Under the pieces are notes generated by a model. It was not told the origin of the DNA. It saw nothing but the letters and a program-made list of their open reading frames with translations, and did not search any database. Positions 1-14,435 of a stretch of DNA of 16,098 nt are shown here, piece by piece; the first letter of the stretch is position 1; each line of letters begins with the position of its first letter. A program made the translations under genes and the position numbers. The DNA comes from an uncultured Ruminococcus sp. (GTDB lineage: Bacteria; Bacillota; Clostridia; Oscillospirales; Acutalibacteraceae). The stretch lies in assembly GCA_934476515.1 (NCBI GenBank), contig CAKSNZ010000039.1:1-16098 (forward strand), read 5' to 3'.

Positions 1-15
1 TTAGTATATGCGAAT

Positions 16-50
16 TGTATACCATGTCCTTGCGCTCCTGTATACCATGT
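16..50. repeat. Short direct repeat pair (12-mer, 23-bp period)
   Basis: The 12-mer TGTATACCATGT occurs at 16-27 and again at 39-50 in a gene-free stretch. No ORF or conserved RNA is visible here. It may be the edge of a larger repeat cut by the window boundary; its function is unknown. Confidence 0.5.
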
Positions 51-64
51 TACTCTTGACACAC

Positions 65-141: not shown

Positions 142-144
142 GCC

Positions 145-375: not shown

Positions 376-660
376 ATTTGCTGAAATTTAACACTTTACA
401 TTTAGCACTACAAACCCTAATTTATTAAGCTGATTTATCTTAAGCAACGCAGAAACAAAATTAAAAAAGAGTACAGAAGAACTGATAAAATGAAATCAAT
501 TCAACTGTACTCTTTATTTTTATTTTAAAGTTTTTATTTTTATATTTCAAATTCTATCCAATAGGAACTATATATAAATAATTACCCTACTATTATAATC
601 ACCTATATTTATTATATTTTAAATCAACATTTACAATTACTACAATATTTTGAAATTATA
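376..660. other. AT-rich intergenic region downstream of the cobalamin operon
   Basis: No credible gene is visible on either strand. The only structure I can support is the terminator-like hairpin at 463-515. The remaining sequence, between that hairpin and the S-component stop codon, is very AT-rich and would form the 3' untranslated tail of the operon transcript. Confidence 0.6.
463..515 (-). terminator. Putative intrinsic terminator of the cobalamin operon
   Basis: The arms 466-476 and 505-515 form an 11-bp perfect stem (core GAGTACAG / CTGTACTC) closing a roughly 28-nt AT-rich loop. Read on the minus strand, the stem runs into six T residues. It lies about 155 nt past the S-component stop. 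The large loop makes it less typical. Because the A/T tracts are symmetrical it could also stop transcription from the other side. Confidence 0.6.
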
Positions 661-669
661 AAAGGTAAA

Positions 670-1347
670 TTAAAGACCGTATTTTATTTTTATACGCTCA
701 AGTTTTTTGCCGATTGGTTTTATTAGAACAAACAGGAACACCACATTTGAAATGGCATAGGTGATTGTAACAGGGATTGCAGTTACAATATTTGCAATAA
801 ATCTTGAAAAGTTAAATGTACCGTCATACCAAAATGTTGTCCACACATCCATAAGAAATGAGAACAGTACACCGGCTAATGCACCGAAAACAAGTAGAAT
901 AATAATATTCTTTTGAAGGACTTTAGCAAGTAACCCTGCAAGTAGCCCAATCAGTCCCCAAGCAAACATTTGGAATGGTGTCCATGGTCCTTGACCGAAA
1001 ATAAAGTTAGAGATAAGGGCAGTAAACGCCCCACAAATAAAGCCATATTCATAACCCATATAAATACCGGTTATCACCACCATTGCAGTTACAGGCTTAA
1101 AATGTGGAATAAATGAAAATAGAAATCTACCGGCTACCGAAAGTGCAATCATTACTGCTAAGATAACTAACTTTGTGGTGTTGGTGTCCTTCTTTTCAAA
1201 AGTCAAAAATAGTGGTACTAGGGAAAATAATGCCACACAAAGTGACACCCATGCATATGACCTATCCTTAAAAACCACCACACCTAATATAACTGCAAGT
1301 GGTACTAATATTATTAGAAATGAAAGTTTAATTATTTTCTTAGCCAT
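670..1347 (-). CDS. ECF transporter S component, predicted cobalamin/corrinoid-specific
   Basis: This is an integral membrane protein of 225 residues and the probable substrate-binding subunit of the ECF importer encoded just upstream. About eight hydrophobic segments are visible. Two extra N-terminal helices (about 6-26 and 30-50) precede the usual six-helix S-component core, which starts near TTKLVILAVMIAL. A conserved-looking loop, FGQGPWTPFQMFAWG (near residues 117-131), matches many clostridial ECF S components. The start is ATG preceded by AAGGAGGA at ideal spacing, and it overlaps the ATPase stop by 8 nt, so translation is probably coupled. Substrate is inferred from the B12 riboswitch and the transcobalamin-like partners; CbrT-type B12 S components are a plausible relative. 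It is not CbiM, since it has no N-terminal His metal motif. Family confidence is high, substrate moderate. Confidence 0.85.
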   Translation of the reverse strand: MAKKIIKLSFLIILVPLAVILGVVVFKDRSYAWVSLCVALFSLVPLFLTFEKKDTNTTKLVILAVMIALSVAGRFLFSFIPHFKPVTAMVVITGIYMGYEYGFICGAFTALISNFIFGQGPWTPFQMFAWGLIGLLAGLLAKVLQKNIIILLVFGALAGVLFSFLMDVWTTFWYDGTFNFSRFIANIVTAIPVTITYAISNVVFLFVLIKPIGKKLERIKIKYGL

Positions 1348-2995
1348 TTTGTTCCTCCTTAATTAGAGAAACTACATCATCAACAGTAACTGCATTTGCG
1401 AATTTATCACGAGAAATTCTGCTTGATGCTGTGGTGTAGAAATTATTTTTTGAGAAAAATTCTTGTGGTACAAGTGAGGACAGCACTTCCCCATCAAAGA
1501 AAAGACCACATCTGTCTGCTACTATTGAGGCAAATTCCACATCATGGGTTACTGTAATAATTGTCACACCATCTGATTTAATCTCTTGCAAAATTTTGCT
1601 TAATGAAAGTTTACTGTAAGCATCCACACCCTTAGTAGGCTCATCAAGTAAGAGAATTTTCGGTTCAGAAATCAAGACTTTTCCTAAAGCACATTTCTGT
1701 ATTTCACCACCACTAAGGTCATAAGGATGGTTTTCTAATAAGTCCTTTATACCTAACTTTTCAGCTACTGAATTTATCTTATCTTCATAATCCGATTTTT
1801 CAATTCCCTTAATTTTGCAAAGTTCTGTATAGTCATCAATGACTCTGGATTTTAGGAAAACCGATTCAGGGTTTTGTGGCAACATTGCAACACCAAGTCG
1901 GTTAAAATCGGCAGTGGTTTTCTTAGTCATTTTGTTGTTATCAATTATAACCTTGCCTCTGTATGGCTTTAGAAGTCCTGCAAGAATTTTCAATGTTGTG
2001 GTTTTGCCTGAACCGTTACCACCTAAAATACAGAAGTGTTCACCTTTTTTGATACTTAAATTTGTACCGGAAAGAATGTCATTTCCACCTTTTTCATATC
2101 TAAAGAATACATCCTTTAGGGTGATAATATCTTCTGTATTCGGAATAGTATTTCGCAAAGGTAATTTTCTTTCAGAGAAATTCAAGTTAATAAAATTTCT
2201 ACCTTCCTTTACTGTTAAAGGACATTCACCTTTACTGCCGGACTTTTGCCAAATCCGTACTGCTGAAGGGAAACCTTGTGACATAGGGTGGTTACTGAGC
2301 TTTTCACACACATTCCTAGGTGTATCGTAACAAATCACCTTGCCATCTTCCATAACTGCAACCTTATCGGCAATAGGGAAAACCTCTTGAAGTCTATGTT
2401 CAATAATAATTACAGTTAGTCCAAGTTCATCATTGATTTTCTTTAAGGTTGTAATAAAATCATTGGCAGTTATAGGGTCAAGCTGAGAAGTAGGTTCATC
2501 AAGAATAATAACATCAGGTGACATTGCCATAACTGAGGCAAGGTTCATTAACTGCTTTTGACCACCTGAAAGTTCAGTAGTCTTTTTTCTAAACAGACTT
2601 GTAATGCCAAAGTAGTTTGCCATTTCCCCTACTCTCAGTCTTATATAGTCAGAGTCATAACCTAGGCTTTCAAGACCAAAAGCAAGTTCATGCCACACCT
2701 TATCCGTAACAATTTGTTGGTCAGGCTTTTGGAATACAAAGCCGATTTTTTGTGCAGAAATTTTATCATCTAGCTTTTCTACATCTTCACCCTTATAATA
2801 AACTGCACCTTGCTTTTCCCCATGTGGTGCAATTTCTTTTTTTAACATTCTAAGCAGTGTAGTTTTGCCACTACCTGACTGACCACACACCACAACAAAA
2901 TCACCACTGTTAATAGATAGGTTCACATTTTGTAGTGCAAAGTTTTCCTTATTCGGATAAGAAAATGTTAAATCTTTGATACTGAGTATTTCCAC
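1340..2995 (-). CDS. ECF transporter ATPase, two fused ABC domains
   Basis: This single 551-residue chain holds both nucleotide-binding domains that power the ECF importer on the cytoplasmic face. Domain 1 (about 1-235) has Walker A GQSGSGKTT (about 38-46), a Q-loop near FVFQKPDQQ, signature LSGGQKQ (about 142), Walker B VIILDEPTSQLDP and an EH switch histidine. Domain 2 (about 285-530) has Walker A GGNGSGKTT (about 325-333), AMLPQNP, signature LSGGEIQK, Walker B ILLLDEPTKGVD and THD. All catalytic motifs look intact in both halves. I chose GTG at 2995 because a near-perfect GGAGGTGA lies 5 nt upstream; the longer TTG-started frame to 3010 would place this site inside the gene. The frame overlaps the T-component gene by 28 nt. 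Fused A-A' proteins are typical of dedicated rather than shared ECF systems. Confidence 0.92.
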   Translation of the reverse strand: MEILSIKDLTFSYPNKENFALQNVNLSINSGDFVVVCGQSGSGKTTLLRMLKKEIAPHGEKQGAVYYKGEDVEKLDDKISAQKIGFVFQKPDQQIVTDKVWHELAFGLESLGYDSDYIRLRVGEMANYFGITSLFRKKTTELSGGQKQLMNLASVMAMSPDVIILDEPTSQLDPITANDFITTLKKINDELGLTVIIIEHRLQEVFPIADKVAVMEDGKVICYDTPRNVCEKLSNHPMSQGFPSAVRIWQKSGSKGECPLTVKEGRNFINLNFSERKLPLRNTIPNTEDIITLKDVFFRYEKGGNDILSGTNLSIKKGEHFCILGGNGSGKTTTLKILAGLLKPYRGKVIIDNNKMTKKTTADFNRLGVAMLPQNPESVFLKSRVIDDYTELCKIKGIEKSDYEDKINSVAEKLGIKDLLENHPYDLSGGEIQKCALGKVLISEPKILLLDEPTKGVDAYSKLSLSKILQEIKSDGVTIITVTHDVEFASIVADRCGLFFDGEVLSSLVPQEFFSKNNFYTTASSRISRDKFANAVTVDDVVSLIKEEQNG

Positions 2996-3864
2996 ACAAT
3001 CACCTCCCAAACCTCTGATACAAATGGTATAAATGATAATAAAGCAAAACTAATATATACAATAATCTGACTAATGCCAAAATTAAAATTTGAAATTTCC
3101 GGATAAAAGCTAAAGTCAGTTACTCCCATAGCCATTCCCACAATTACTATGCCAAAGAAAATTACAATAGCAAGTAGATAAATTAAGTCCCTTGACCTAA
3201 ATTTGTACATAGAAAAGTGGGTTCTTCCCTTTAGTCCATAACCTCTTGCTTTCATTGATGAGGCAGTTTCTACAGAATTTTCAAGTGACCAAGTGATTAG
3301 TGCAGAAAACACCTTTAGTTCACTTGTGATTTTATTTACAAAACCTTTTCTGTCATACAGACCTATTGAACTTTGTACATTTCTGATTTCATGTAGCTTT
3401 TCTTTAAACAAAGGAATAAACCTTAGTGCCATTGACAGTACAAGGGAAAGCTTAGGAATAGCCTTACCGAAAAGATAAAGGAACTTATCAGTAGTCATAA
3501 TTAAGCTATAGCACTTGCACCAATAGATAACTGCCATCAGCATTAGGGCAATATCCATACCGTAAATAATAGCCTCCATAGTTACAGGGTTGCCATTCAT
3601 AAAGAATAGTGGTGTTACACCGTTGTGTGAAAATAATGGATTGATAATTGTTATCAACAGAAACATAGGAATGTAAAAGGTCAAATCCTTTAGAAACACC
3701 TTTATATCTTGAATCATTAGGAAAAACAAAAGTCCACCAACTAACCCTACACCTAAAATTATAGGGTTTGTGCTAAACATAGAAATTACAATTTCACTTA
3801 GAAAATACACCATTAAAACTGCCGGATGAATTGTGGCAAAACTTTTTAACTTGTTACTTTCCAT
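2968..3864 (-). CDS. ecfT: ECF transporter T component (transmembrane coupling subunit)
   Basis: This 298-residue membrane protein should connect the S component to the ATPase dimer. Hydrophobic segments fall near 15-50, 55-90, 100-125, a long coupling region, and 225-285. The diagnostic coupling-helix motif SSMKARGYG (Ala-Arg-Gly, about 205-213) is present after the stretch that begins with SLVLSMALRFIP. I selected ATG at 3864 because GGAGGAAAG lies directly upstream. A longer frame to 3894 would run back into the DUF4430 gene and bypass this site. The true start still overlaps the upstream gene by 11 nt. Position between the membrane-tethered DUF4430 protein and the ATPase marks it as dedicated to this corrinoid system. 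Confidence 0.9.
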   Translation of the reverse strand: MESNKLKSFATIHPAVLMVYFLSEIVISMFSTNPIILGVGLVGGLLFFLMIQDIKVFLKDLTFYIPMFLLITIINPLFSHNGVTPLFFMNGNPVTMEAIIYGMDIALMLMAVIYWCKCYSLIMTTDKFLYLFGKAIPKLSLVLSMALRFIPLFKEKLHEIRNVQSSIGLYDRKGFVNKITSELKVFSALITWSLENSVETASSMKARGYGLKGRTHFSMYKFRSRDLIYLLAIVIFFGIVIVGMAMGVTDFSFYPEISNFNFGISQIIVYISFALLSFIPFVSEVWEVIVWKYSVSKI

Positions 3865-4405
3865 TGCTTTCCTCCACAAAATCACAACCAACATCTCTGC
3901 CTAAATCACAGGTATAGGACCATACAATATCATCACCGTCTTTTAAAGTATAATTGGAACAACCATACTTAGGAAACTTATTGTTTACCTTATACATCCA
4001 GCCTGATAATTCTCCACAAGAATATTCATAAAGGTAGTTAATACCCTCAATATAGGCACTACCGTATTTATTTAGGTCAGCACCCTGATATTCCATTTGG
4101 ATTTTCTTGTAGCGAGTTACTCTGTCAAGAATATCAAAAACAGTATCCTTTGGGTTAAGCACAAACCTAGTTTTCTTTAGAATATAGCCATCCTTTGGAA
4201 TATACTTTTCTAAATTTGAATCTAGCTTGTCCTTATTGTCAAAGACAGTTTTACATTCTATTGTCATTGTTACTGTTTTGCTATCCGGTTTAATATCGTC
4301 AACATGGGTTAGGTAATATTCATCAACAGACTGAAAGTCTGTACCCATTATTAAGATAATTACTACTATTATACCGGCAAAAATTGCAAGAATATCTTTC
4401 TTCAC
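3854..4405 (-). CDS. Membrane-tethered DUF4430 (transcobalamin C-terminal-like) protein
   Basis: A 183-residue protein: one N-terminal hydrophobic helix (about 5-23), then a single extracytoplasmic DUF4430 domain to the C terminus. The domain signature reads SGWMYKVNNKF...G...DGDDIVWSYTCDLG.DVG, shared with the two large proteins at the operon start. DUF4430 is homologous to the beta domain of transcobalamin and intrinsic factor, which covers bound cobalamin. Five cysteines (two in CGELSGWM..YGC, two in TCDLGRDVGCDF) could form disulfides. The start is GTG in TAGTG, overlapping the upstream stop by 1 nt, with GAGGAAG upstream. The helix could be a cleaved signal, but no clear cleavage site is seen, so an N-terminal anchor is likelier. 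Being directly before the transporter genes, it may hand ligand to the S component (inference). Confidence 0.8.
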   Translation of the reverse strand: MKKDILAIFAGIIVVIILIMGTDFQSVDEYYLTHVDDIKPDSKTVTMTIECKTVFDNKDKLDSNLEKYIPKDGYILKKTRFVLNPKDTVFDILDRVTRYKKIQMEYQGADLNKYGSAYIEGINYLYEYSCGELSGWMYKVNNKFPKYGCSNYTLKDGDDIVWSYTCDLGRDVGCDFVEESNGK

Positions 4406-5955
4406 TATTCTTCCTCAAAATCAATTTCTTTTTTCTTCTTAATTCTTTTTCTGATTCGTAAAACTACAAATAGTATCAGTAGTACTGCCACAACTGTTAG
4501 CACTGCAAAAACTATAATATTTCTTGTTTTTTCACTAACTACTGCTAAGGCTCTTTCTGTATCATCAAAGCCTGAAACTTTTGTTTTGTCATAACTACTT
4601 AAACTGTTGTAGTCAGCAATTACCTTTTCAATTTTATCCTTATCACTGATTTTCACATTATCAATAGGATAAATTGAATTGATAGTAGTATTAATTGAGT
4701 TGATTTTTTCCTGTATTTTTTCTATTTCTGCTTTATCATTTTTCAGAGTAGAAACATACTTTTCATTTTTACTGTACTGCGCCTTTTCCAATAAAGCTAA
4801 AACATCACCATAGTTTTCTGTGGTTAAATCTTTAGGTAAATTATTAATCTTTTCAATATCTTTATCAGTCAAAGGACTTTTCTTAGAAATTGTATCGGTA
4901 AAGTCATAAAGTGACTTTTCTCCATTTACATAACGAATATATGATGAAAGTGCAAGTAAAGTTTGTTCACTAGCCATTGAATTTGATTTACCGGCTACTG
5001 CTGTAGGGTTGTCCTTATCATTTACATAAGAATGAGTAAATCCACCATCGGAAGTTTTGTACTTCATTATAGCTGACAGTAAAGTGTTGTTACCTTTGAT
5101 AAACCTTTTATCGGTTTGAGCATTAATATTCAGTGCAGAAAGTGCAATTACAACTTGACTTGAACTTTCTACATTTTCAGTACCCCAACTAGTAAAGCCA
5201 CCACTGTTCTTTTGACTTTTTGAAAGGTAGTTAAGTGCCTTGTTGATAGACTCTTTTACATTTTTATAATCTTGATTTTTAGCAAGGGATTGTAGAGCCA
5301 TTGCAGTTAAGTCAACATCAGAGTCACCACTTGTCAAAGCCCAACCACCATCTTTGTTTTGAGCTGAAATTATACTGTTAATAATGCTTTCCTTACTGTT
5401 AAGTGCATTACTTGGTACAGAATAGTTGTTACTGTCAAGTGCAATTAATGCCCAAATGTAACCGTTGATACCTTGCCTACCTAAACCATCTCTGTTATAT
5501 GTACCGTCAGCAATTAGGTTGATACTGTTGCCGTCTTTATCTTTGCCAAAGTTTGTAGGATTACCACCACAAGCTAAAACAGAAAGTGTAATTCTGTGCC
5601 ATTCTGTTGACTTATATTTACTTAACTTCTGAGGAGTTTTGTATGACTTTTCCACATAGTCCTTTAAAGATGTTAAATATGCGTTATAGTCATCATCATA
5701 ACCAAGCCTATTCATAGCAATAGGATACCAGTCACCGTTAGTAGTACCGGCATAAGTTAGGTATTCACCGGTTAACAGATTACTGTCTTTACTGACCTTT
5801 TGGTCAGACTTTTTCCAATTTACAATATTATCACAAATAGATTTTAATTCTTTTGTAGAATATATTTTACTTTCAGCACCATAGGCAACTGTTACGGTAG
5901 AAAGTATCATCACCATTACAATTACACAAGGTATAATCTTCTTAATCATTTTCAT
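4405..5955 (-). CDS. Surface alpha/alpha-toroid protein (intrinsic-factor N-domain-like), membrane-anchored, paralogue 2
   Basis: A 516-residue exported protein. Signal peptide 1-27 ends near AYGA. An alpha/alpha toroid of the squalene-cyclase/prenyltransferase type spans about 30-345, with repeats such as GINGYIWALIALDSNNY, DGGWALTSGDSDVDLTAMAL, GGFTSWGTENVESSSQVVIA and GGFTHS...ASEQTLLALSSY. A helical, FIVAR-like, coiled-coil-prone stalk follows (about 355-475), then a membrane helix (about 480-500) and an RKRIKKKK tail. The place of the cyclase acid motif DxDD is taken by DVDL, which argues against cyclase activity. Intrinsic factor and transcobalamin use this fold as their N-terminal cobalamin-binding half. 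The stop and start of neighbours overlap by 1 nt on both sides (TAATG, TAGTG). Fold assignment is strong; corrinoid binding is inferred from the riboswitch, DUF4430 partners and transporter. Confidence 0.85.
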   Translation of the reverse strand: MKMIKKIIPCVIVMVMILSTVTVAYGAESKIYSTKELKSICDNIVNWKKSDQKVSKDSNLLTGEYLTYAGTTNGDWYPIAMNRLGYDDDYNAYLTSLKDYVEKSYKTPQKLSKYKSTEWHRITLSVLACGGNPTNFGKDKDGNSINLIADGTYNRDGLGRQGINGYIWALIALDSNNYSVPSNALNSKESIINSIISAQNKDGGWALTSGDSDVDLTAMALQSLAKNQDYKNVKESINKALNYLSKSQKNSGGFTSWGTENVESSSQVVIALSALNINAQTDKRFIKGNNTLLSAIMKYKTSDGGFTHSYVNDKDNPTAVAGKSNSMASEQTLLALSSYIRYVNGEKSLYDFTDTISKKSPLTDKDIEKINNLPKDLTTENYGDVLALLEKAQYSKNEKYVSTLKNDKAEIEKIQEKINSINTTINSIYPIDNVKISDKDKIEKVIADYNSLSSYDKTKVSGFDDTERALAVVSEKTRNIIVFAVLTVVAVLLILFVVLRIRKRIKKKKEIDFEEE

Positions 5956-7454
5956 TACTTATCACTTTTCTTCTTAATCATCATTATTAATGTACCTAAA
6001 ACTACTATCAAAATACCTACAACAAAAATCATAATCAGGTTAATAAACACATCTTTATAGTCCTTTGACTTTGTAATTACATTAGATTTTTTATTTTCTT
6101 TAGTAGAATTATTAGTTACTGTGGTACTTTCTGTTGTTGAAGTTGTAGTGTTGCTCACTGTTGTACTTTCAGTATTAGAAGTAGTTTCTGCTACTGTTTC
6201 TTCACTACTATTACTACTGTTATCCCTATTATTATTTACAACATTGTTAACTGAATTATCATTAGGCTGATAATTATTTGTGTTGTTATATGTTGGGGTA
6301 GTTTTATTTTCCGTTACAGAATTATAACTATTAGTAGTTGTATAAACCACTTCAGAATTTTTTGTTGCTTTAGTTGGATTAGTAGTTGTATTTTTATGTG
6401 TAGTAGAATTTGTAACAGTAGGTTTTGACTCAACAGACTTTGTTGTTGTAGCCTCTGTTACAGTAGGGTCATAAGGCTTTTCATACACATCGGTCATATT
6501 ATACAAGAAATTCTTGTTATTGCATAGTCTATAATAAGCCACTAAACCGTAAAAACATTGTTCTGTAGCCATTTGATTATAGTTACTGCCTTTAGTGTGG
6601 GAAAAACCATTTCCAACATAATAAGAAAGCAAAATGTCAACAGGACTTTTGCCATTCTTAATAAATCTTTTATCTGTGTCAGGGTTAATACCTAATGAGC
6701 AAAGTGCCACAATAACTTGACTTGTACTTTCACTGTTAACAGTACCAAAGCTAGAAAATTCTCCTGAAGAATTTTGCATCTTAGTCAAAGCAGTAATACC
6801 TCTGTCAACCGACTTTTTTACTTCTTCATTAGAATTATAATACTTAGCCAAAGAAGTAATAGCCATTGCAGTAATGTCAGGGTCAGGTGTATTACCGATT
6901 AAAGCCCAACCACCGTTACTTAGTTCTTTACTTATAATATATTCAATTAGATTTTCCCTAGTAGTTTGGTTGCTAGGATTTTCATTTTTAGGGATTTCAT
7001 AGTTGTTACTGTCAAGTGCAATTAATGCCCATATAGGACCGTTGATACCTTGCCTTTTTACCTTATTAAAATCAGATAAATAACTTAGAAGGTTATAACT
7101 GCCTACATTAGTAACATCACTGCCTATTGAAGTTAGTGAAAGGATAACCCTTGAATACTCTGTGTATTTTGCAGTGGATAAAACTCCATTCTTCTCCACC
7201 AAGGTATTTACTACATTATTCTGATATTTTTCAAAGTAGGATTTGTCTATATTTAAATCAGACCTGGCAAGACCAATAACCTCCCACTCACCACCGATTG
7301 AACCTACAACTGGGGATTGATTAGCAAGGTACTTTCCTGTAGCGTTATATTCTTCCCTACCCTTTAGTGAAGTACTAACCGAACCTACACTTATAATAGA
7401 AAGGAAAATTGCAACAACAATAGGCAATACTAGGAACTTACTTTTTCTCTGCAT
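5955..7454 (-). CDS. Surface alpha/alpha-toroid protein with Thr/Ser/Asn-rich linker, paralogue 1
   Basis: A 499-residue exported protein paralogous to its downstream neighbour. A signal peptide or anchor (1-29) is followed by an alpha/alpha toroid (about 35-325) with the same landmarks: RQGINGPIWALIALDSNNY, NGGWALIGNTPDPDITAMAI, GEFSSFGTVNSESTSQVIVA and QMATEQCFYGLVAYYR. The cyclase DxDD position reads DPDI, again lacking the last acid. Residues about 330-462 are a low-complexity Thr/Ser/Asn linker that probably spans the cell wall, then a membrane helix (about 472-494) and a KKKSDK tail; there is no LPxTG motif. The ATG lies 16 nt inside the upstream small gene, with AAAGGAAAAG ahead of it. 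It differs from the paralogue mainly in replacing the helical stalk by a flexible linker. Role inferred as a surface corrinoid-binding half. Confidence 0.83.
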   Translation of the reverse strand: MQRKSKFLVLPIVVAIFLSIISVGSVSTSLKGREEYNATGKYLANQSPVVGSIGGEWEVIGLARSDLNIDKSYFEKYQNNVVNTLVEKNGVLSTAKYTEYSRVILSLTSIGSDVTNVGSYNLLSYLSDFNKVKRQGINGPIWALIALDSNNYEIPKNENPSNQTTRENLIEYIISKELSNGGWALIGNTPDPDITAMAITSLAKYYNSNEEVKKSVDRGITALTKMQNSSGEFSSFGTVNSESTSQVIVALCSLGINPDTDKRFIKNGKSPVDILLSYYVGNGFSHTKGSNYNQMATEQCFYGLVAYYRLCNNKNFLYNMTDVYEKPYDPTVTEATTTKSVESKPTVTNSTTHKNTTTNPTKATKNSEVVYTTTNSYNSVTENKTTPTYNNTNNYQPNDNSVNNVVNNNRDNSSNSSEETVAETTSNTESTTVSNTTTSTTESTTVTNNSTKENKKSNVITKSKDYKDVFINLIMIFVVGILIVVLGTLIMMIKKKSDK

Positions 7455-7701
7455 TTTTCTTTTCCTTTTTATTTAATTTAAAAATCTTTAGGTATGCAAT
7501 ATACACACCTTCAGCTACTGCAACTGCAGTAACAATAATAAACATAATATATATATAAACATCACTAACACCACTACTACCGTCAGTTGCAAAACAAGTT
7601 GTACAACTAATAATAATTAGCAGAATTACTGATATTACAGTCAAAGTTAATTTCTTAATTTTCATAGTTTTATTTTCTTTATTAGAATTTTTATTCTTCA
7701 T
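7438..7701 (-). CDS. Small membrane protein in the cobalamin operon, unknown function
   Basis: I do not recognise a family. The product is about 87 residues from ATG 7701; a GTG at 7713 and an ATG at 7665 are alternatives. The last of these would place the signal-like helix MKIKKLTLTVISVILL right at the N terminus. That helix ends in IISC, which fits a lipobox loosely, and in CFATDG, which fits a signal peptidase I site. A second membrane helix (YIYIMFIIVTAVAVAEGVYI) and a Lys-rich cytoplasmic tail follow. It overlaps both neighbours (11 nt upstream, 17 nt downstream), so it is embedded in the operon. It could be an accessory subunit or chaperone of the surface proteins, but nothing in the sequence shows which. 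Confidence 0.65.
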   Translation of the reverse strand: MKNKNSNKENKTMKIKKLTLTVISVILLIIISCTTCFATDGSSGVSDVYIYIMFIIVTAVAVAEGVYIAYLKIFKLNKKEKKNAEKK

Positions 7702-7963
7702 TATTTTTCTCACAATTTTTCTTGTACTGAGCTTTTCTTTCCTTTGCTCTTTTTTGTTTCTCTTGTTTTACTAATAATTTTTTGTCATCCCTAGGTGGCT
7801 TTACTCCTGCCTTTTCCAATGCTCTTGGCCATGGACCTAGGTGGGACTTTATCATCATAACTTGCCAATCTGTAAAGTCACTTTTCTTAGGCAATTCATT
7901 ATTTTTATTAAATTTATTCTTTATAAGAATTATACAATCTTCTTTAGTTAACTTTTCTTCCAT
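7691..7963 (-). CDS. Small HNH_repeat-type (homing-endonuclease-associated repeat) protein without nuclease
   Basis: A roughly 90-residue, highly charged, presumably cytoplasmic protein. Residues 5-60 resemble the homing-endonuclease-associated repeat (HNH_repeat): an N-terminal helix (LTKEDCIILIKNKF), NNELPKKSDF, then a second helix ending in LGPWPRALEKAGVKPP, which matches the family's G.W..AL..AG hallmark. The rest is a Lys/Arg/Glu-rich tail. No HNH or LAGLIDADG catalytic motif is present, so it is not an endonuclease by itself. The second of two adjacent ATGs (7963) is preferred because GGAG sits 5 nt before it, against 2 nt for ATG 7966. It overlaps the next gene by 11 nt. A DNA- or RNA-binding role is possible; why it sits in a B12 operon is unclear. 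Confidence 0.72.
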   Translation of the reverse strand: MEEKLTKEDCIILIKNKFNKNNELPKKSDFTDWQVMMIKSHLGPWPRALEKAGVKPPRDDKKLLVKQEKQKRAKERKAQYKKNCEKNNEE

Positions 7964-7988
7964 CATTTCTCCACTGTAAATATGGAAA

Positions 7989-8020
7989 TAACTGATACTC
8001 CCCTAAGGAAGTATCAGTTA
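7989..8020 (-). other. Strong intergenic hairpin inside the operon, no U-tract
   Basis: Arms 7989-7999 and 8010-8020 are an 11-bp perfect inverted repeat (TAACTGATACT / AGTATCAGTTA). On the minus-strand RNA about three further pairs (one G-U) can form, leaving a 4-nt loop. It sits between the dockerin gene stop and the HNH_repeat gene, the only sizeable gap within the operon. No T-run follows on either strand, so a full terminator is doubtful. It may stabilise the upstream mRNA segment or cause partial termination (inference). Confidence 0.6.
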
Positions 8021-8035
8021 CCCCTATAAATTAAA

Positions 8036-10360
8036 TTATTTTGAATACATATAGAATGATGCACCAATTAAAGTATCAAGTTCCGGATTGGCAATATACT
8101 TCTGAATCTTTGTTACAGATTTTACAGTAATTATATCCATATGGTCAAACATAGCACATTCTTTCTGAACATCATTTAGTTCAGCTAACTTAGTAGCATA
8201 CTTCTGTAGTAATGTTACATCCTGAACAGTTACTTCACCGTCTTGGTTTATGTCACCATAAATATACTTACTTCTCTCTACACCACAGTAAATACACTTG
8301 TCGTTTTCGAAAGTACAGAATTCTTCTTCACTTTCACCACAACCATCACAAGTCTTAATGTGTTTACCGTTTAATAGAGTTTTGTAAGTGTAGTTATGAA
8401 TATGCTTTTCACCATAGCAATATAGATAACCTTCTTCGTTAAAGAAGTAGATTTGACCTTCATCATCAATAGCAATCTGTTCGTAAGCATATGCTGCTGT
8501 ACTTGTTGTTGAAAGGTTGCTTAACTGCTTTAGTGTACCGGAAGTGCTGTTTTCATTATCCTCTAGATAATAAATATTACCCGGTGCATTGTATGACTGA
8601 ACATAAATATAAACATTGCCTGTTTCTTCTTCGTAACCTGTTGAAAGAATTGGGTTACTCTGAATTTTCATACCGATTTTATTTGTTGTGTAGATAGTAT
8701 TCATAAAGTTGCTATCCTCAGGATTACCGTTGATAACATCAATAGTACCACCCTGACCTGCTACATAAATTCTGTTGTTATATACAACCGGTGCACATAC
8801 AGATTCTTGGCTGATAGTAGCAGATTTATAAGTTTCCTTATCAAAGTCACCATTATCATTTAGCTTAACTGCATGTAGGTTTTTCTGCTTGTATGAACCC
8901 CAATATAGATAATCTGTTGTATCATCATATGTAAGTTCACCACCAATATTATAAGTAGTAGTACGGTTTTCATCATACTTATACTGATACTTAATTGTGT
9001 TTGTCTTGTAGTCAACACAGTAAATATCATTTGTTGCTACTACATAGTAGTAATTATTAGCAAATACACCTTGTGACCAGTTAAAGGCATCTCCACCAAT
9101 AGTACCGTCACCAACCTGAGTTAGTACATTGTCACTATTTTTATTTACCTTATAAATATTACCGTTACAAACTAAGTAACCGTTGTTGTACTGCATTGGG
9201 TGATACTGATTAAATGTACCTTTTACTTTGCCAAGTGACTGTAAAGTATCAATGTCAAATGCTTCAATATCACTTGCAGTTGAAACGAAAATCATTCCGT
9301 CACCATATGCAACATAGTCATAATAGAAAGCTGTTGAACCGGCTACTGCAACAGTTTCGCCTTTACCTGTTTTTGTGTCAACCTTGTGTAGGCTACCTGC
9401 ACCTGTAGCATATAGATAATCGTCAACAATTACTGACTGACCGGCATAGTAAGAACCCCAAGAACCCTTAGTTCTGTTAAGTTCATAAGACCATTTTTCT
9501 TCCGGATTATTCTTAACAACCTTAGTATCAGTTACCTGATTGCCGTCTTTGAAGTTATTCATAGCACCGGCCCATTCAACATTGTGTGTGTCCTCAGGTT
9601 CATCAGGTGTTGACTGCTTTGCATCATCAAGTGCCTTAATAGCATTATCAATCTGTTCTTCTGTTACATTCCAAGTGTTTAATAACTTAACTGCATCTGT
9701 ATAAGCAGTACCGTATTCACTCTGAGCATTTTCGTCATTAATATCAGCAACATAAGAAATAAGGTCACTTCTATCTACAAACTTATTTGTAGTATCAAAG
9801 CTCATCATACCCCAGCTAATACCAACATCTTCACCATAGCCGTAAAGAGTGTACTGAAGTCTTACAACACTACCGTCTGTATAGTGAGTTGTGTCTGCCT
9901 TGTCAGCATAGCTAACACCACCTGCACCAACATCAATACCCTTGTTATCTACAGTAAACATCCAACCACTGTATGAAGTGTAATCAAATGCCTTAAGAAC
10001 ATCTTTCTCTGTTCTACCATTTACATTTTCACCAATAGCCTTCTTAATGTCTGAAGGAATTTCATCAGAAGTCCAATTTTCAGGTTCGCCACCATCTTTG
10101 ATACCTTCTAGGTAGTAGTTTGAAATATCACCTGTAAATGTACTTCTGTCGCCTAACATTCTTTCTGTAATATCTGCCAAAGACTCACCCTCATAGTAAC
10201 CAACCTTGATTGGTTCTTGAATGAAACCTTGACCAAGAGTGTTTCTTTCAACAGTCATATAAATATAACCGTCAAAAGCCTTTTCTTCTTCTGCACTAAA
10301 AGTTGCTACTGTTGAAATAACAAGAGCTAGTGCAAGAAATAATGATAATAATTTTTTCAT
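8036..10360 (-). CDS. Secreted DUF4430, PQQ-like beta-propeller, dockerin protein (predicted corrinoid binder)
   Basis: A 774-residue secreted modular protein. Signal peptide about 1-22 (cut near TFSA). The DUF4430 domain (about 28-190) carries the SGWMFTVDN...DGSVVRLQYTLYGYGEDVG signature. A FIVAR-like helical linker (about 200-250) follows, then a PQQ-like beta-propeller (about 258-650) with repeated blade strands such as VIVDDYLYATG and PVVYNNRIYVAGQGG. Next is a Cys/His-rich zinc-ribbon-like module (about 653-698; CDGCG, CIYCG), and last a type I dockerin (about 702-758). Dockerin repeat 1 (GDINQDGEVTVQDVTLLQKY) is intact; repeat 2 (FDHMDIITVKSVTKIQKY) has lost most calcium ligands. It has no membrane anchor, so retention presumably depends on a cohesin elsewhere. 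It starts at ATG in an ATGA overlap with the upstream gene. DUF4430 suggests cobalamin binding, and the propeller recalls BtuG of Bacteroides, which also binds B12; both links are inference. Confidence 0.85.
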   Translation of the reverse strand: MKKLLSLFLALALVISTVATFSAEEEKAFDGYIYMTVERNTLGQGFIQEPIKVGYYEGESLADITERMLGDRSTFTGDISNYYLEGIKDGGEPENWTSDEIPSDIKKAIGENVNGRTEKDVLKAFDYTSYSGWMFTVDNKGIDVGAGGVSYADKADTTHYTDGSVVRLQYTLYGYGEDVGISWGMMSFDTTNKFVDRSDLISYVADINDENAQSEYGTAYTDAVKLLNTWNVTEEQIDNAIKALDDAKQSTPDEPEDTHNVEWAGAMNNFKDGNQVTDTKVVKNNPEEKWSYELNRTKGSWGSYYAGQSVIVDDYLYATGAGSLHKVDTKTGKGETVAVAGSTAFYYDYVAYGDGMIFVSTASDIEAFDIDTLQSLGKVKGTFNQYHPMQYNNGYLVCNGNIYKVNKNSDNVLTQVGDGTIGGDAFNWSQGVFANNYYYVVATNDIYCVDYKTNTIKYQYKYDENRTTTYNIGGELTYDDTTDYLYWGSYKQKNLHAVKLNDNGDFDKETYKSATISQESVCAPVVYNNRIYVAGQGGTIDVINGNPEDSNFMNTIYTTNKIGMKIQSNPILSTGYEEETGNVYIYVQSYNAPGNIYYLEDNENSTSGTLKQLSNLSTTSTAAYAYEQIAIDDEGQIYFFNEEGYLYCYGEKHIHNYTYKTLLNGKHIKTCDGCGESEEEFCTFENDKCIYCGVERSKYIYGDINQDGEVTVQDVTLLQKYATKLAELNDVQKECAMFDHMDIITVKSVTKIQKYIANPELDTLIGASFYMYSK

Positions 10361-11610
10361 TGTTTCCTCTCCTTGTTGTTTTTATATAATATCATAATGC
10401 AAACTATAATTGCCAAAACAACTACACCTGCAATTATTATTAAAAAAATGAAAAATCCATTTACAGTATTAATTTCTTTTACAGAGTTATTACTACTTTC
10501 ACTACTTAAATTATCAGAGTTATCAGAAATATTAGAATTATTATCTTCATTATTACCCTTAACATTTTCAGTATTGCTTACTGTTTCCTTACTGATATTT
10601 TTACTGTTATCAGTAGCAGTTTCTTTTGTATCATTCTTCTTGTTATCGGTACTTTTATTTTCTCTATAAGAATTATTATCTATACTATTAATACTATTAT
10701 CTGTATTATTATTTACAGAATTTTTATTAACTGCTTTAATACTGTTACCGTTAATATCTTTCTTTGTGGTTTTATCAGTAGTATTTTTAGTAGTTTTTGA
10801 AGTAGGAATTTTCACTTTAACAGTAACAGTATCACTGTCTTTTTTGCCTTCTCCATTGTCAAAAACAGATTTAACTGTAATTGCAGTATTGTCCTTTACC
10901 TTAAAATACTCATTATTGCTATAGCTTTTTCCATTATAATGATACGTTACCCTAGAATAATAATTTTCAAGGGTTGCATTTATAGCAACATTGCTTTTGC
11001 CCTTAGGCAAAGTTAATGTATAGCTTTTATTATTAGTAGAAAAGCTAGGTGACAGCTTACCACTTGTAAAGTGCAAATTCTTAATTTTTGCAACAGGATT
11101 ATTAAAGTCACAACCAATATCTTTACCAAGACCGGTAGCAGTAAACTGCCACTTAATTTCATCATTATTTTTTACATAAAATTCTGATGCACCTTTATTG
11201 ATAAACCAGTTGTTGTAACTAATCATCCAACCACTTTCGCTACCAACAGAAAATTCACCTAAACCGTAACCGTCACTAACCTTTTTTCCACTTACTGTAG
11301 TAAAGTTGTCAATAGAAGCAAGATAAAAACCACCACCCATTTCAGGTTTACCTGTATATGCCGGTTTGATACCCTTTTCCTTTAGTAGTCTTAATGTGAC
11401 AGTTGCAATAGTATCGTTTTTATTAATTTTTACTTTGGTTTTGTTAATGATTTTCCCAAGCTGATGAGGAAAATCTCCCTTGTCACTACCACGGATACCA
11501 TAGTCCTGAAAGCTAATAGTTACATAACCACTACTAGCAGAAACATTTACTATACCAAATGATAGGATTACTGTGATAGCAACAAGGATTAGAGCAAATA
11601 ACTTTTTCAT
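10357..11610 (-). CDS. Surface-anchored DUF4430 plus cadherin-like domain protein, first gene of the B12 operon
   Basis: A 417-residue exported protein. Signal peptide about 1-26 (MKKLFALILVAITVIL...SASS); DUF4430 about 28-160 with GGGFYLASIDNF and ESGWMISYNNWF...NNDEIKWQFTATGLGKDIGCDF. A cadherin-like beta-sandwich domain (about 163-262) has the hallmark LHFTSGKLSPSFSTNNKSYT. An Asn/Ser/Thr/Lys-rich linker (about 265-375), membrane helix (about 380-405) and basic tail KNNKERKQ end the protein. I chose ATG 11610: TTAGG lies 5 nt upstream, while the GTG at 11616 overlaps that site. The leader holds a cobalamin riboswitch and terminator, so expression should rise when B12 is scarce. It ends ATGA-overlapped with the dockerin gene, preceded by a good AGGAGAGG. 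Likely a wall-spanning corrinoid receptor (inference from DUF4430 homology to transcobalamin). Confidence 0.85.
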   Translation of the reverse strand: MKKLFALILVAITVILSFGIVNVSASSGYVTISFQDYGIRGSDKGDFPHQLGKIINKTKVKINKNDTIATVTLRLLKEKGIKPAYTGKPEMGGGFYLASIDNFTTVSGKKVSDGYGLGEFSVGSESGWMISYNNWFINKGASEFYVKNNDEIKWQFTATGLGKDIGCDFNNPVAKIKNLHFTSGKLSPSFSTNNKSYTLTLPKGKSNVAINATLENYYSRVTYHYNGKSYSNNEYFKVKDNTAITVKSVFDNGEGKKDSDTVTVKVKIPTSKTTKNTTDKTTKKDINGNSIKAVNKNSVNNNTDNSINSIDNNSYRENKSTDNKKNDTKETATDNSKNISKETVSNTENVKGNNEDNNSNISDNSDNLSSESSNNSVKEINTVNGFFIFLIIIAGVVVLAIIVCIMILYKNNKERKQ

Positions 11611-11641
11611 AAACACCTAAAATATAACACAAAATGGGCAT

Positions 11642-11669
11642 AAAAAAACTCCTTGCAAAACGCAAAGAG
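11642..11669 (-). terminator. Intrinsic terminator acting as riboswitch expression platform
   Basis: On the minus strand CTCTTTGC (11669-11662) pairs with GCAAGGAG (11656-11649) in an 8-bp stem with one G-U, a 5-nt loop, and seven T residues (11648-11642). It lies between the riboswitch aptamer and the first gene, so B12 binding probably promotes termination. A segment upstream, GAAGAG (11721-11716), can pair with CUCUUU of the terminator's 5' arm and is a candidate antiterminator. Confidence 0.85.
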
Positions 11670-11683
11670 ACACCAAAACAAAA

Positions 11684-11700
11684 CATTACCCATAGTAATG
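11684..11700 (-). other. Candidate P13 hairpin of the cobalamin riboswitch
   Basis: CATTAC-loop-GTAATG forms a 6-bp stem with loop UAUGG in the minus-strand RNA, about 45 nt past the B12 box. AUGG of the loop (11693-11690) is complementary to CCAU in the aptamer's L5 region (11782-11779), which fits the L5-L13 kissing contact known for cobalamin riboswitches. The L5 segment also repeats CATTAC, so it could compete for the 3' arm of this hairpin. Confidence 0.5.
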
Positions 11701-11744
11701 CTTTAAAAATGGTTACTCTTCTTACCCAAAAGTACTAAAACCTT

Positions 11745-11825
11745 GAATATAGCAAGTCATCTGGCTTAATTCACAGTAATGGCAGTTGCAACGGACTTTC
11801 ACCGTATTTCCCTTGCCTATATTCT
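11745..11825 (-). promoter_or_regulatory. Cobalamin riboswitch aptamer (compact form)
   Basis: The minus strand carries the cobalamin-riboswitch landmarks in order: a closing stem GAATATA...TATATTC extended by GCAAG/CTTGC, then GGGAA, ACGGTGAAAGTCCGT, an L5 region with GCCATTACTGTGA, and the B12 box AGCCAGATGACTTGC (11766-11752). Only a few bases separate ACTGTGA from the B12 box, so the long peripheral arm of class I aptamers is missing and a class II (Cbl-II type) assignment is likely. Such compact forms may prefer methyl- or aqua-cobalamin over adenosylcobalamin (family knowledge). It controls the ten-gene operon through the terminator at 11642-11669. Confidence 0.93.
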
Positions 11826-11842
11826 TATTCAATTACAAAGAC

Positions 11843-11871
11843 AGTATACCACAATCTCCCCTATATTTCAA
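11843..11871 (-). promoter_or_regulatory. Sigma-A-type promoter of the cobalamin operon
   Basis: The minus strand shows TTGAAA (11871-11866), a 17-nt spacer and TATACT (11848-11843). Transcription would start near 11836, about ten bases before the closing stem of the riboswitch. The hexamers, spacing and position all agree, so this is a confident call for a housekeeping promoter. Confidence 0.8.
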
Positions 11872-11915
11872 CTTATATTTTTTAGCTATAAAATGTGACA
11901 AATTATTTTTATAAT

Positions 11916-11958
11916 AAAAAAGTGGTAGCAAATAAGCCGTAAACTTACTTGCCACCAC
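11916..11958 (-). terminator. Intrinsic terminator of the beta-helix gene
   Basis: On the minus strand GTGGTGGCAAGTAAG (11958-11944) pairs with CTTATTTGCTACCAC (11936-11922), a 15-bp stem with two G-U pairs and a 7-nt loop, followed by six T residues (11921-11916). It begins 8 nt after the beta-helix stop codon and insulates the cobalamin promoter from upstream transcription. Confidence 0.9.
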
Positions 11959-11966
11959 AAGATTAA

Positions 11967-13397
11967 TTAATATTTTGAAACTGCTTTTACTTTTGAAGCA
12001 CAATTTGAATAAGTATTCTTATTTTTACCTGAATTAACAATACTAATTTTTTTACCCTTAACGTAATAAATTGCTGAACCCTTGATTTTTGTGTCACTAA
12101 CATTTTTAAACTTATTCTTGCTTATAGTAACATTTTCTTCAAAAGGTAATGAAATAGCATGACCTACTACATTGGTAAACTTATTGTTTTGGATTGTAAT
12201 GCCATTACAATTTTTCTTACCGGCTGCATGAGAACCAATAGCTCTAACTACACCGTTAAAATTACAATTATGAATATTAACGTTTTTTGTAGAGGTACCA
12301 TCCCAACTTGACTTAATTGTTGGCATTGCTCCTTCTTCATCAGTTTCAATTTGAGCTACTTCAAAATGGTAGAACTTACCGGTACCTTTCTTACCACTTT
12401 GTCTTTCAAGGTACTTATCAAAATTCTTTGTTGCTAAAGGCTTATCGGTAGCCACTCTGTAGATAACGTCATTTCTCTTATTATCTGTATTAACAGAGTC
12501 TGTATAAAGAATGTTTTTAAAATTACAATGACTAATTTCAATATTTCTTGATGAAGTAAGCTGGAATACATGGCTATAATACAAAGCCTTTTCCACTGTA
12601 ATGTTTTCAACCTTTAGATTAGCACCGTGTAAGAAATACATAAAAGAAGATGGCTTGTATGTTTTAGCCTTATCGTCACCACCGGCAACAACAAAGTTTC
12701 TTACAGTAATATTTTGGGAACCATTATATCCTTTAGTATTTGTATCATCATTATCAAAATTAATGAAAATAGGCAAAGCTCTTGTCTTGATTAATCTTGT
12801 ATTTGCTCCGGAGCCTTCTACTTTTGTCTTAGAATAAAGTCTATAAAAACCATCAACATAGAAGTCGCCTTTACTAAGTTTAACTGTTAGGTTCTTTCTC
12901 TGTGCAAAAGGAATTTTTGCTCTACTCTTAGTTTTACCGATTTTGGTAATAGTATTGCTAACGTCACAGTTCTTCTGGAATATATACTGAATACAGAACT
13001 TACCACTATTTTCACTGGTAGTAACCGTATTATTCTTTTCGTTTACATAACTATTAGTAAACTCGCCCTTATTATTAAAACTACCATACTGCCACTTATA
13101 TGTTTTTCCTTGTTTCCAAAGCTTAACAACATAATTAATAATAACTGTTTTGTAATTAGGTTTTTTTAATGTAACAGTAATATAATTAGGCTTACTGCTT
13201 TTATTCCAAATATGTGATGTTGCATCACTTGCATTGTTAAGATGTCTTGTACTTTTACCATTTGCATCTGTAACAACAGGATAATTTGTTCTAACATTTG
13301 TTGATTCTGCACTTGAAGTCATTGGCATAACAGAGAATGCAGTTAGCATCATAATCATTGCCATAATAAGTGCAACACAATTTCTACATTTTTTCAT
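11967..13397 (-). CDS. Secreted right-handed parallel beta-helix protein
   Basis: A 476-residue exported protein with signal peptide about 1-30 (MKKCRNCVALIMAMIMMLTAF...SSAES). The N-terminal third (about 30-150) is rich in Lys, Asn, Thr and aromatic residues with no family I recognise. From about 160 the chain shows parallel beta-helix coils of the pectate-lyase type: QNITVRNFVVAGG, LKVENITVEKAL, RNIEISHCNFKNI, KNVNIHNCNFNGVVRAIGSH, NGITIQNNKFTNVVGHAIS and ENVTISKNKFKNVS. No anchor, dockerin or clear catalytic set is visible. A carbohydrate-active or surface-binding role is possible, but a lyase cannot be claimed. ATG 13397 is preferred over 13415 because AAAGGAAG lies 7 nt before it. The gene has its own promoter and terminator, so a link to B12 uptake is not supported. 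Confidence 0.82.
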   Translation of the reverse strand: MKKCRNCVALIMAMIMMLTAFSVMPMTSSAESTNVRTNYPVVTDANGKSTRHLNNASDATSHIWNKSSKPNYITVTLKKPNYKTVIINYVVKLWKQGKTYKWQYGSFNNKGEFTNSYVNEKNNTVTTSENSGKFCIQYIFQKNCDVSNTITKIGKTKSRAKIPFAQRKNLTVKLSKGDFYVDGFYRLYSKTKVEGSGANTRLIKTRALPIFINFDNDDTNTKGYNGSQNITVRNFVVAGGDDKAKTYKPSSFMYFLHGANLKVENITVEKALYYSHVFQLTSSRNIEISHCNFKNILYTDSVNTDNKRNDVIYRVATDKPLATKNFDKYLERQSGKKGTGKFYHFEVAQIETDEEGAMPTIKSSWDGTSTKNVNIHNCNFNGVVRAIGSHAAGKKNCNGITIQNNKFTNVVGHAISLPFEENVTISKNKFKNVSDTKIKGSAIYYVKGKKISIVNSGKNKNTYSNCASKVKAVSKY

Positions 13398-13451
13398 TTT
13401 ATTACTTCCTTTCATAATGTAAAATTTGAGAAATATTTTCTATTTCCCAAA

Positions 13452-13480
13452 GTAACCCTTTTAAATAGTAAAAAGGTTAC
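13452..13480 (-). other. 5' leader hairpin of the beta-helix gene
   Basis: In the minus-strand RNA GUAACCUUUUU (13480-13470) pairs with AAAAGGGUUAC (13462-13452), 11 bp with one U-G pair and a 7-nt AU-rich loop. It lies 55 nt before the chosen start in a leader of about 115 nt. It is not followed by a U-tract, so an mRNA stability or translation role is likelier than termination (inference). Confidence 0.5.
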
Positions 13481-13519
13481 ATAATTTGCAATATTTTAAT
13501 TTACCAATTCAACAGTATA

Positions 13520-13548
13520 ATTATATAATTTTATCCAAATTAATGCAA
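13520..13548 (-). promoter_or_regulatory. Sigma-A-type promoter of the beta-helix gene
   Basis: Minus-strand TTGCAT (13548-13543), 17-nt spacer, TATAAT (13525-13520). The -10 box is a perfect consensus. Transcription would start near 13513 and include the hairpin at 13452-13480 in the leader. Confidence 0.65.
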
Positions 13549-13571
13549 TGTTAATTTTCCACAAAAAACTC

Positions 13572-13600
13572 TTTACATCAGTAAATAAATAGTATAAACT
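13572..13600 (+). promoter_or_regulatory. Possible promoter for the plus-strand membrane-protein genes
   Basis: TTTACA (13572-13577), a 17-nt spacer and TAAACT (13595-13600) stand about 30 nt before the first plus-strand start codon. The -10 matches the consensus at four of six positions, so the call is tentative. It would be divergent to the beta-helix promoter in the same roughly 230-nt intergenic region. Confidence 0.4.
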
Positions 13601-13630
13601 ACAAGTATAGTTATGAAATGAGGAATTAAT

Positions 13631-13906
13631 ATGAAAAACTTAGACAAAATTTTTATGGCATTATTTATTATAGGTACAGTATTCCTTGTTGTATCGGTAT
13701 GTTTCTTTAGACTTGCTCCAATCGGTTTTAATGTTGCAATGTCAATTTTGGAAGGACTTACTGCTTTAATTATGCTTGTACTTACCGGTATTTCTGCTAT
13801 CAAAAATCATAAATCATCCGGTTCATGGTATAGCAACCCTTTCCAAACTGTCTTTTTCTCAGTTATCCTTATTGGTTGGGCTATTGCCGTATTCTTTGTA
13901 ATGTGA
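13631..13906 (+). CDS. Small three-helix membrane protein, unknown function
   Basis: I do not recognise a family. The 91-residue product is almost entirely membrane-embedded: helices at about 8-28, 33-57 and 70-90, with short polar loops (IKNHKSSGSWYSNPF between helices 2 and 3). ATG 13631 follows GAGGAAT at good spacing. It is the first gene of the plus-strand group and reads away from the beta-helix gene. The overlapping minus-strand frame (13573-13803) lacks a ribosome site and is a shadow of this gene. Confidence 0.7.
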   Translation: MKNLDKIFMALFIIGTVFLVVSVCFFRLAPIGFNVAMSILEGLTALIMLVLTGISAIKNHKSSGSWYSNPFQTVFFSVILIGWAIAVFFVM

Positions 13907-13926
13907 TTTTTGTTTTGGTATCTGAT

Positions 13927-13955
13927 TTGAAGTAATTTCATTCTACAAATTATAT
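13927..13955 (+). promoter_or_regulatory. Possible internal promoter ahead of the 151-residue protein gene
   Basis: TTGAAG (13927-13932), 17-nt spacer, TTATAT (13950-13955), placed 15 nt before the start codon at 13970. The -35 is good and the -10 weak, and the short distance to the start codon would leave a very short leader. Low-confidence call; the three downstream genes may instead be read from the promoter near 13.57 kb. Confidence 0.3.
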
Positions 13956-13969
13956 AGCAAAGGTAAAAT

Positions 13970-14425
13970 ATGATTATAAACATAAAGACAAACCGTACAA
14001 TAGAAGAAATGGAAAACACATTATCAAATCTAATTCTAGAAAAATATCCCAGAAGGTACAGTGAAAACAGAAAAGGTATCAACTGGGTAAGCAACAAAAA
14101 GGACTTTCTATGCTTATTTTATGAGGATGATAACAAGGATCGTTTTGGTTGTCAAACTACTGCAAAACCATTTTTCTACGGAAAATTGATTAAATTCAGA
14201 GGTAACTACAGAATAGTAGGCATTGCTTGCCTTAACATAGTAGATATTCTTATACTTCTGGCTTTACTCATAATTTCAATTTTTGGAGCTGATGAATTTT
14301 TGGAATTTGACAGTGAAACTCTGTTTGGCTTAGTCTTTGCTTGTTTTATCCTTGCAATTTTTGTTAATGACCTACTTATCGACACTAAAAAAATCAAGAA
14401 ATATTTAATAGAAAAATTCGGATAG
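13970..14425 (+). CDS. Membrane protein with N-terminal soluble domain and two-helix hairpin, unknown function
   Basis: No family recognised. The 151-residue product has a polar N-terminal domain (about 1-75, with a helix TIEEMENTLSNLILEKY and a beta-rich part FLCLFYED..FYGKLIKFRG), two membrane helices (about 82-101 and 113-131), and a Lys-rich tail. ATG 13970 follows AAAGGTAAA. The next gene begins 10 nt after this stop codon, indicating co-transcription. The layout of soluble domain, membrane hairpin and basic tail is shared with the two following genes, although I see no convincing residue-level similarity. Confidence 0.7.
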   Translation: MIINIKTNRTIEEMENTLSNLILEKYPRRYSENRKGINWVSNKKDFLCLFYEDDNKDRFGCQTTAKPFFYGKLIKFRGNYRIVGIACLNIVDILILLALLIISIFGADEFLEFDSETLFGLVFACFILAIFVNDLLIDTKKIKKYLIEKFG

Positions 14426-14435
14426 GAGATTTTAA

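Follow-up and report, generated by a model that had tools for sequence, protein, structure and literature searches.

Organization of the operon

We analysed a stretch of 16,098 nucleotides from an uncultured Ruminococcus sp. (GenBank assembly GCA_934476515.1, contig CAKSNZ010000039.1, positions 1 to 16,098; hereafter the window), in which one minus-strand unit, at about 670-11829, begins with a cobalamin riboswitch and ends at 670 with the S component of an energy-coupling factor (ECF) importer. A sequence-only reading had described 3854..11610 as one operon holding three DUF4430 proteins, two alpha/alpha-toroid proteins and a complete ECF importer behind a cobalamin riboswitch. All of these parts were recovered on the minus strand using Pfam, Rfam and our own profiles. 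The surface genes do lie within that range, but the S component, the fused ATPase and most of EcfT fall outside it, and the unit has to be extended to take in the importer genes and the riboswitch.

Counted from the riboswitch, the first gene (10357..11616, likely start ATG 11610) encodes a protein with a signal peptide, a DUF4430 domain (PF14478, 8.8e-8), a low-complexity stalk and a C-terminal transmembrane (TM) segment. The second encodes a secreted protein of 774 amino acids (8036..10360) that combines an N-terminal DUF4430 domain, a propeller-like region and a C-terminal dockerin-like repeat. These are followed by a TM-free HNH_repeat protein of 91 amino acids (7691..7966, PF18780) and a small protein read as an open reading frame (ORF) with two TM segments (7438..7713). 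Toroid protein 2 (5955..7454) is composed of a signal peptide, an alpha/alpha toroid, a Thr/Asn-rich stalk and a C-terminal TM segment, and toroid protein 1 (4405..5955; PF13243, 2.8e-10), which belongs to the conserved core, has a signal peptide, an alpha/alpha toroid, a helical stalk, a C-terminal TM segment and a basic tail. Lastly, the core DUF4430 protein with its N-terminal TM anchor (3854..4405; PF14478, 2.6e-18) precedes EcfT (2968..3894; PF02361, the CbiQ family, 2.3e-11), the fused EcfA-EcfA' double ATPase (1340..3010; TIGR04520, 374.3 bits against a cut-off of 315) and the CbrT-like S component (670..1347). Adjacent genes overlap, with a 69-base gap (8036 to 7966) as the sole exception. 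The parts, their order and the riboswitch are established at the level of sequence.

The riboswitch aptamer is of the AdoCbl-II type (11746..11829; RF01689 of Rfam clan CL00101, E 1.3e-5) and passes the gathering cut-off of its covariance model by a thin margin (36.6 versus 36.5 bits). Ahead of it lies a promoter-like site, TTGAAA-17-TATACT with TG before the -10 element (11843..11871, minus strand), picked out solely by this position, as promoter-like matches are not enriched in the window (78 versus 79.2 in shuffles). Between the aptamer and the first gene, the terminator search found an intrinsic-terminator-like hairpin (11649..11669, minus strand), and such matches are enriched (15 versus 5.6 in shuffles). 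This hairpin is likely the expression platform of the riboswitch, and the order of promoter-like site, aptamer and hairpin is the layout that would be expected for a transcriptional off-switch. Cobalamin riboswitches are described as off-switches in PMC11477304.

The ECF importer and its substrate

The window encodes the T component, both ATPase domains and the S component together. The nearest solved relative of the S component is CbrT of Lactobacillus delbrueckii (PDB entry 6FNP), with E values of 1.4e-9 by phmmer and 1.5e-13 by profile, whereas the next S component, 4HZU, is matched at 0.011. According to PMC5997447, ECF-CbrT imports both cobalamin and cobinamide in an ATP-dependent manner. 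The two systems share a homologous S component and the same type of ECF module; unlike ECF-CbrT, the operon in the window adds its own T and A-A' genes, a riboswitch, and two toroid and three DUF4430 surface proteins. A cobalt importer resembling CbiMNQO was also considered, since EcfT falls in the CbiQ Pfam family, yet it was set aside as the S component is CbrT-like.

The riboswitch and the CbrT-like S component bear out the earlier assignment of a B12 uptake operon, and a role in B12 capture and uptake is well supported. The system might instead serve a corrinoid precursor or another cobamide, such as cobinamide or pseudo-B12, and not B12 itself. Many cobamides are present in gut communities, and the cobinamide uptake by CbrT points the same way. 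The sequence does not separate these ligands, and such a system would differ from one for B12 in ligand preference alone; we see only a slight chance that it does.

The DUF4430 and toroid proteins

Searched by profiles, the window contains three DUF4430 domains and two toroids. Two of its proteins exceed the PF14478 cut-off of 23.8 bits (66.7 and 32.9 bits). The third DUF4430 domain, at residues 53-180 of the protein at 8036-10360, is matched at 3.9e-12 by a profile built from relatives, and the Pfam search at E 0.1 did not report it. Similarly, Pfam gives the toroid of 5955-7454 only 6e-4, short of its cut-off, and the family profile matches it at 1.2e-75. PF14478 is an uncommon domain, with matches in 2 of 14 control genomes.

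Many residues are invariant in the toroid alignment (A1, 26 rows). Asp213 and Asp215 are kept, and in none of the rows is the next residue Asp. Class II terpene cyclases carry a catalytic DXDD motif. A terpene cyclase function was set aside for the toroids because the motif is incomplete and the proteins are exported and encoded in a B12 riboswitch operon. The NCBIfam family SCO2321_fam matches both window toroids weakly, and in two relatives' genomes it gives only sub-threshold matches.

The predicted signal peptides and TM anchors agree with the earlier view that the toroid and DUF4430 proteins are exported surface proteins. The anchors differ among the loci that we compared (see below) and comprise C-terminal TM segments, N-terminal anchors, lipoboxes, SLH repeats, LPXTG-type signals (above cut-off in L046 and in L129 of Latilactobacillus curvatus) and, in the window, possibly a dockerin; a sortase gene lies within the operon of L043. 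A location outside the cell appears to be the common theme of these proteins.

Conservation of the gene set

Seventy-eight loci were chosen by similarity to the toroid alignment A1, from the 80 best of 99 matches, and 76 of the loci contain a DUF4430 ORF. Where at least 5 kb lies downstream of the toroid (58 loci), DUF4430, T and A are found together in 50 and the full toroid-DUF4430-T-A-S order in 43, and eight have no T and A nearby. The S component was undetected in seven of the 50, five of which belong to Sporosarcina, Caryophanon and Lysinibacillus. None of the eight relatives' genomes searched has an RF01689 match over cut-off. The element of the relatives is RF00174. Of the 41 loci scanned with Rfam, 35 have it ahead of the operon on the same strand; the misses are L001, L021, L022, L026, L049 and L068, and the block of L026 begins 77 bases from a contig end. 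Apart from these loci, one genome of 2.9 Mb (G256) holds 26 RF00174 matches, 25 of them over cut-off and several near DUF4430 or toroid matches, and its B12 regulon is unusually expanded.

Because the 78 loci had been picked by toroid similarity, a second search covered 299 genomes sampled evenly from one phylum around the seed genome G002 (Clostridium cadaveris), which is counted. The thresholds were E <= 1e-20 for the toroid and E <= 1e-10 for both the core DUF4430 (A2) and the CbrT-like S component (A5). The toroid was found in 42 genomes, the core DUF4430 in 25 and the S component in 90. All 42 toroid genomes (Fisher 3e-26) and all 25 core-DUF4430 genomes (Fisher 6e-15) contain the S component, and toroid and DUF4430 occur jointly in 19 (Fisher 1e-13), although some sampled genomes look closely related and the counts are not fully independent. 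The genes are also close in position. Toroid and S are no more than 10 kb apart in 33 of the 42 toroid genomes. Among the 25 genomes with the core DUF4430, its distance is at most 5 kb from a toroid in 16 and at most 10 kb from S in 18. Of these 25, 22 were searched for a cobalamin riboswitch in the 15 kb that precede the best DUF4430 match on its strand; 16 have one, against 0.35 expected. Eighteen genomes have the toroid within 10 kb of S and no DUF4430 at threshold; in 17 of these the block contains weaker DUF4430-like ORFs, which our profiles match at E values as weak as about 1e-4; in L114, the one block taken to Pfam, both such proteins were confirmed. A riboswitch precedes these diverged blocks by no more than 5 kb in 17 of 18 cases, the exception (G061) being on a 4-kb contig. 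The association of toroid, DUF4430 and S component is not due to chance. The sequence-only reading had proposed a co-occurrence survey with hidden Markov models, and the outcome lies far above chance.

These counts bear on a reading of the B12 uptake operon in which DUF4430 alone binds the ligand, like a classical accessory lipoprotein, with the toroid serving as a scaffold or for docking and making no contact with the corrinoid. The DUF4430 domains of the window outnumber its toroids (three versus two), and a small DUF4430 lipoprotein of Lactobacillus rhamnosus, LGG_02295, is annotated in PMC9963975 as 'Additional lipoprotein component of putative cobalamin ECF transporter'. However, the toroid is tied to S as tightly as DUF4430 is, its alignment holds many invariant residues, and fusions join it to DUF4430 and, in a single genome, to the S component. 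We therefore regard binding by DUF4430 alone as rather unlikely.

LGG_02295 adjoins the gene for a B12-dependent ribonucleotide reductase (PMC9963975), and its link to the transporter is by annotation alone, with the toroid, the riboswitch and the carrier architecture unmentioned in the available part of that source. The cluster of L. delbrueckii is given as nrdJ-cbrS-cbrT-pduO (PMC5997447), in which we infer cbrS to be the DUF4430 gene. Since LGG_02295 is labelled as a cobalamin ECF component, one half of the idea, the link of DUF4430 to a cobalamin ECF transporter, is already anticipated. The sequence-only reading had left open whether the system was described before: its DUF4430 half was, by annotation in Lactobacillus, and searches of an open-licence library, without bioRxiv preprints and most subscription papers, showed no paper that joins the toroid to DUF4430 and B12 in bacteria or describes the carrier architecture there.

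Fusions and comparison with animal B12 carriers

The sequence-only reading took the toroid and DUF4430 halves to be split. This is the case in the window, where they are separate genes, but not throughout the family, in which both orders of fusion occur. The best toroid ORF carries an upstream DUF4430 in 13 of the 78 loci, only a piece of which, cut by the contig end, is present in L033. In Anaerovorax sp. IOR16 (L027:3180-4505), a lipobox is followed by the toroid and then by DUF4430, which is the animal order, and this protein has 17 homologs at E <= 1e-99; no riboswitch was found by Rfam ahead of it on its own strand. In genome G116, the S component is in frame with a toroid and SLH repeats (L116:4616-6826), although the toroid may have a separate gene start inside that frame. 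A further candidate for a toroid-DUF4430 fusion, in this case of the window's operon, P0007, was left unused, as its C-terminal TM segment runs into that of the next gene and a deletion or assembly error is possible.

The animal carriers intrinsic factor, transcobalamin and haptocorrin likewise consist of an alpha/alpha toroid plus a DUF4430-family domain, and PMC4350170 places DUF4430 at the C-terminus of the animal TCN proteins. When the structure model of one toroid-DUF4430 fusion was compared with the PDB using Foldseek, ranks 1-15 were all transcobalamin, intrinsic factor or haptocorrin (E 5e-10 to 6e-8), and the next match after the carriers was a prenyltransferase (2.4e-5). With a second aligner, the 50 matches listed for the fusion model were toroid enzymes and no carriers were among them, which does not exclude the carriers. 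At the sequence level, our profiles A1, A2 and A3 and single proteins gave no carrier matches above cut-off among PDB sequences, and one bacterial toroid (L127:11866-12987) has a sub-threshold match (0.017) to PF01122, the animal cobalamin-binding family that covers the carriers' toroid.

Several observations weigh against a carrier-like clamp. At E 0.1, PF01122 matches neither toroid of the window, and in the genomes of 25 relatives it has no match above cut-off and one weak match (0.0057). Moreover, the placement of the domains is unlike that of the closed animal carriers. In the window, toroid and DUF4430 are on separate membrane-anchored proteins, and the toroid-first order in a single chain occurs only in relatives such as Anaerovorax. 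The likeness to animal carriers put forward earlier is supported by the structural match of a fused relative, common descent with them is a possibility only, and PF01122 gives nothing above cut-off; what ties the toroid/DUF4430 proteins to the carriers is solely the comparison of a predicted structure. On balance, a putative intrinsic-factor-like clamp of toroid and DUF4430 is likely. It is a tentative and less probable proposition that this pair is an ancient bacterial corrinoid clamp for Gram-positive ECF B12 importers from which the animal carriers descend, by lateral transfer or shared ancestry. If so, intrinsic factor and transcobalamin would be soluble, fused forms of a Gram-positive surface capture system.

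Proposed function

The operon belongs to a real, widespread, B12-regulated uptake system of the ECF-CbrT kind, with a structural link to the animal B12 carriers. Our favoured reading, to which we assign a probability of roughly 0.6, is a corrinoid-scavenging operon in which a toroid-DUF4430 clamp captures the ligand and hands it over to the CbrT-like importer. The corrinoid as ligand of the toroid/DUF4430 proteins, their pairing, the clamp and the hand-over are what we infer. At low levels of intracellular cobalamin cofactor, the riboswitch would permit transcription through the terminator, and the toroid and DUF4430 proteins would be exported and retained outside, on the membrane or the wall. 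As intrinsic factor and transcobalamin do, a toroid and a DUF4430 domain would then hold a corrinoid between them. From the core pair anchored in the membrane (4405-5955 and 3854-4405), the corrinoid would go to the CbrT-like S component and be imported by this component together with EcfT and the EcfA-A' ATPase. By analogy with sortase-anchored heme proteins, the additional DUF4430, toroid and propeller proteins may act as a relay through the wall.

BtuG/BtuH of Bacteroides and NEAT/Isd of Gram-positives capture a tetrapyrrole-type cofactor at the surface and hand it over to an importer. The proposed surface capture and hand-over, together with the propeller-like region in 8036-10360, resemble these systems by description. 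With this reading, importers of the CbrT type gain a conserved, testable set of surface partners, and likely functions follow for proteins that now carry the labels 'terpene cyclase', 'squalene oxidase repeat' or 'DUF4430'. The system is a possible bacterial counterpart, perhaps an ancestor, of the human B12 carriers. PMC6593275 describes the identification of B12 transporters as an open problem for numerous human-gut genomes. Genome-based prediction of B12 phenotypes would become sharper with this reading.

Other operon members and neighbouring genes

In the protein at 8036-10360, the propeller-like region (4e-4) and the dockerin (0.0017) are each below the Pfam cut-off, and the dockerin-like C-terminus suggests docking to a cohesin. 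In Vescimonas (L127), annotated cohesin and dockerin genes adjoin toroid and DUF4430. Surface proteins with PQQ-type propeller-like regions recur in the window (8036-10360), L028:4575-7934 and L053:5562-9011, and the match is above cut-off in L053 only. BtuG of Bacteroides is also a propeller. Relatives of the HNH_repeat protein (PF18780, about 90 residues, TM-free) are present in 29 of the 78 loci, often as the first gene behind the riboswitch, and this protein of B12 operons is perhaps a regulator. The two-TM protein at 7438-7713 has no relatives in the 78 loci at E 1e-3. The sequence-only reading lists neither of these small proteins, nor the propeller-like region and weak dockerin of 8036-10360.

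A trio of MoxR, DUF58 and transglutaminase-like genes recurs in the 78 loci (MoxR in 14, DUF58 in 13 and transglutaminase in 13), namely in L028 (11853-16378), L040, L045, L046, L050, L058, L059, L060, L062, L066, L068, L069, L073 and L074. It sits between the toroid and the core DUF4430 in L028 and L040, and after the ATPase gene, at the place expected for the S component, in L059 (Sporosarcina ureae), L066 and L068. In Vescimonas fastidiosa (L127:12987-17218), the trio is annotated beside toroid and DUF4430, and no ECF genes are present in the stretch read. Such neighbours, as well as the SLH, dockerin-like, MucBP and GLUG domains among operon members and the resemblance of the toroids to glycan-active enzymes too, would suit surface proteins that have a different ligand, or the wall, as their target, in glycan or peptide binding or in maturation, and share an operon with the B12 importer for regulation only. 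The link to the CbrT-like S component and the cobalamin riboswitch, which holds across diverged genomes, and the structural match of the toroid-DUF4430 fusion to the B12 carriers make this very unlikely, and both agree with corrinoid capture by the toroid-DUF4430 clamp.

Among viral contigs, the toroid pattern gave 16 matches, none of which is a relative. Three unannotated faecal records labelled 'Bacteriophage sp.' (MT837027.1, MT839226.1 and MT835727.1) encode relatives of the core DUF4430 protein, one of them 65% identical; these are possibly bacterial DNA filed as phage. Finally, the same-strand neighbour of the operon (11967-13415) encodes a secreted protein of 482 amino acids, which we read as probably of the beta-helix type. 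A terminator-like hairpin at 11958-11922 follows this gene, so it appears to be a separate transcription unit.

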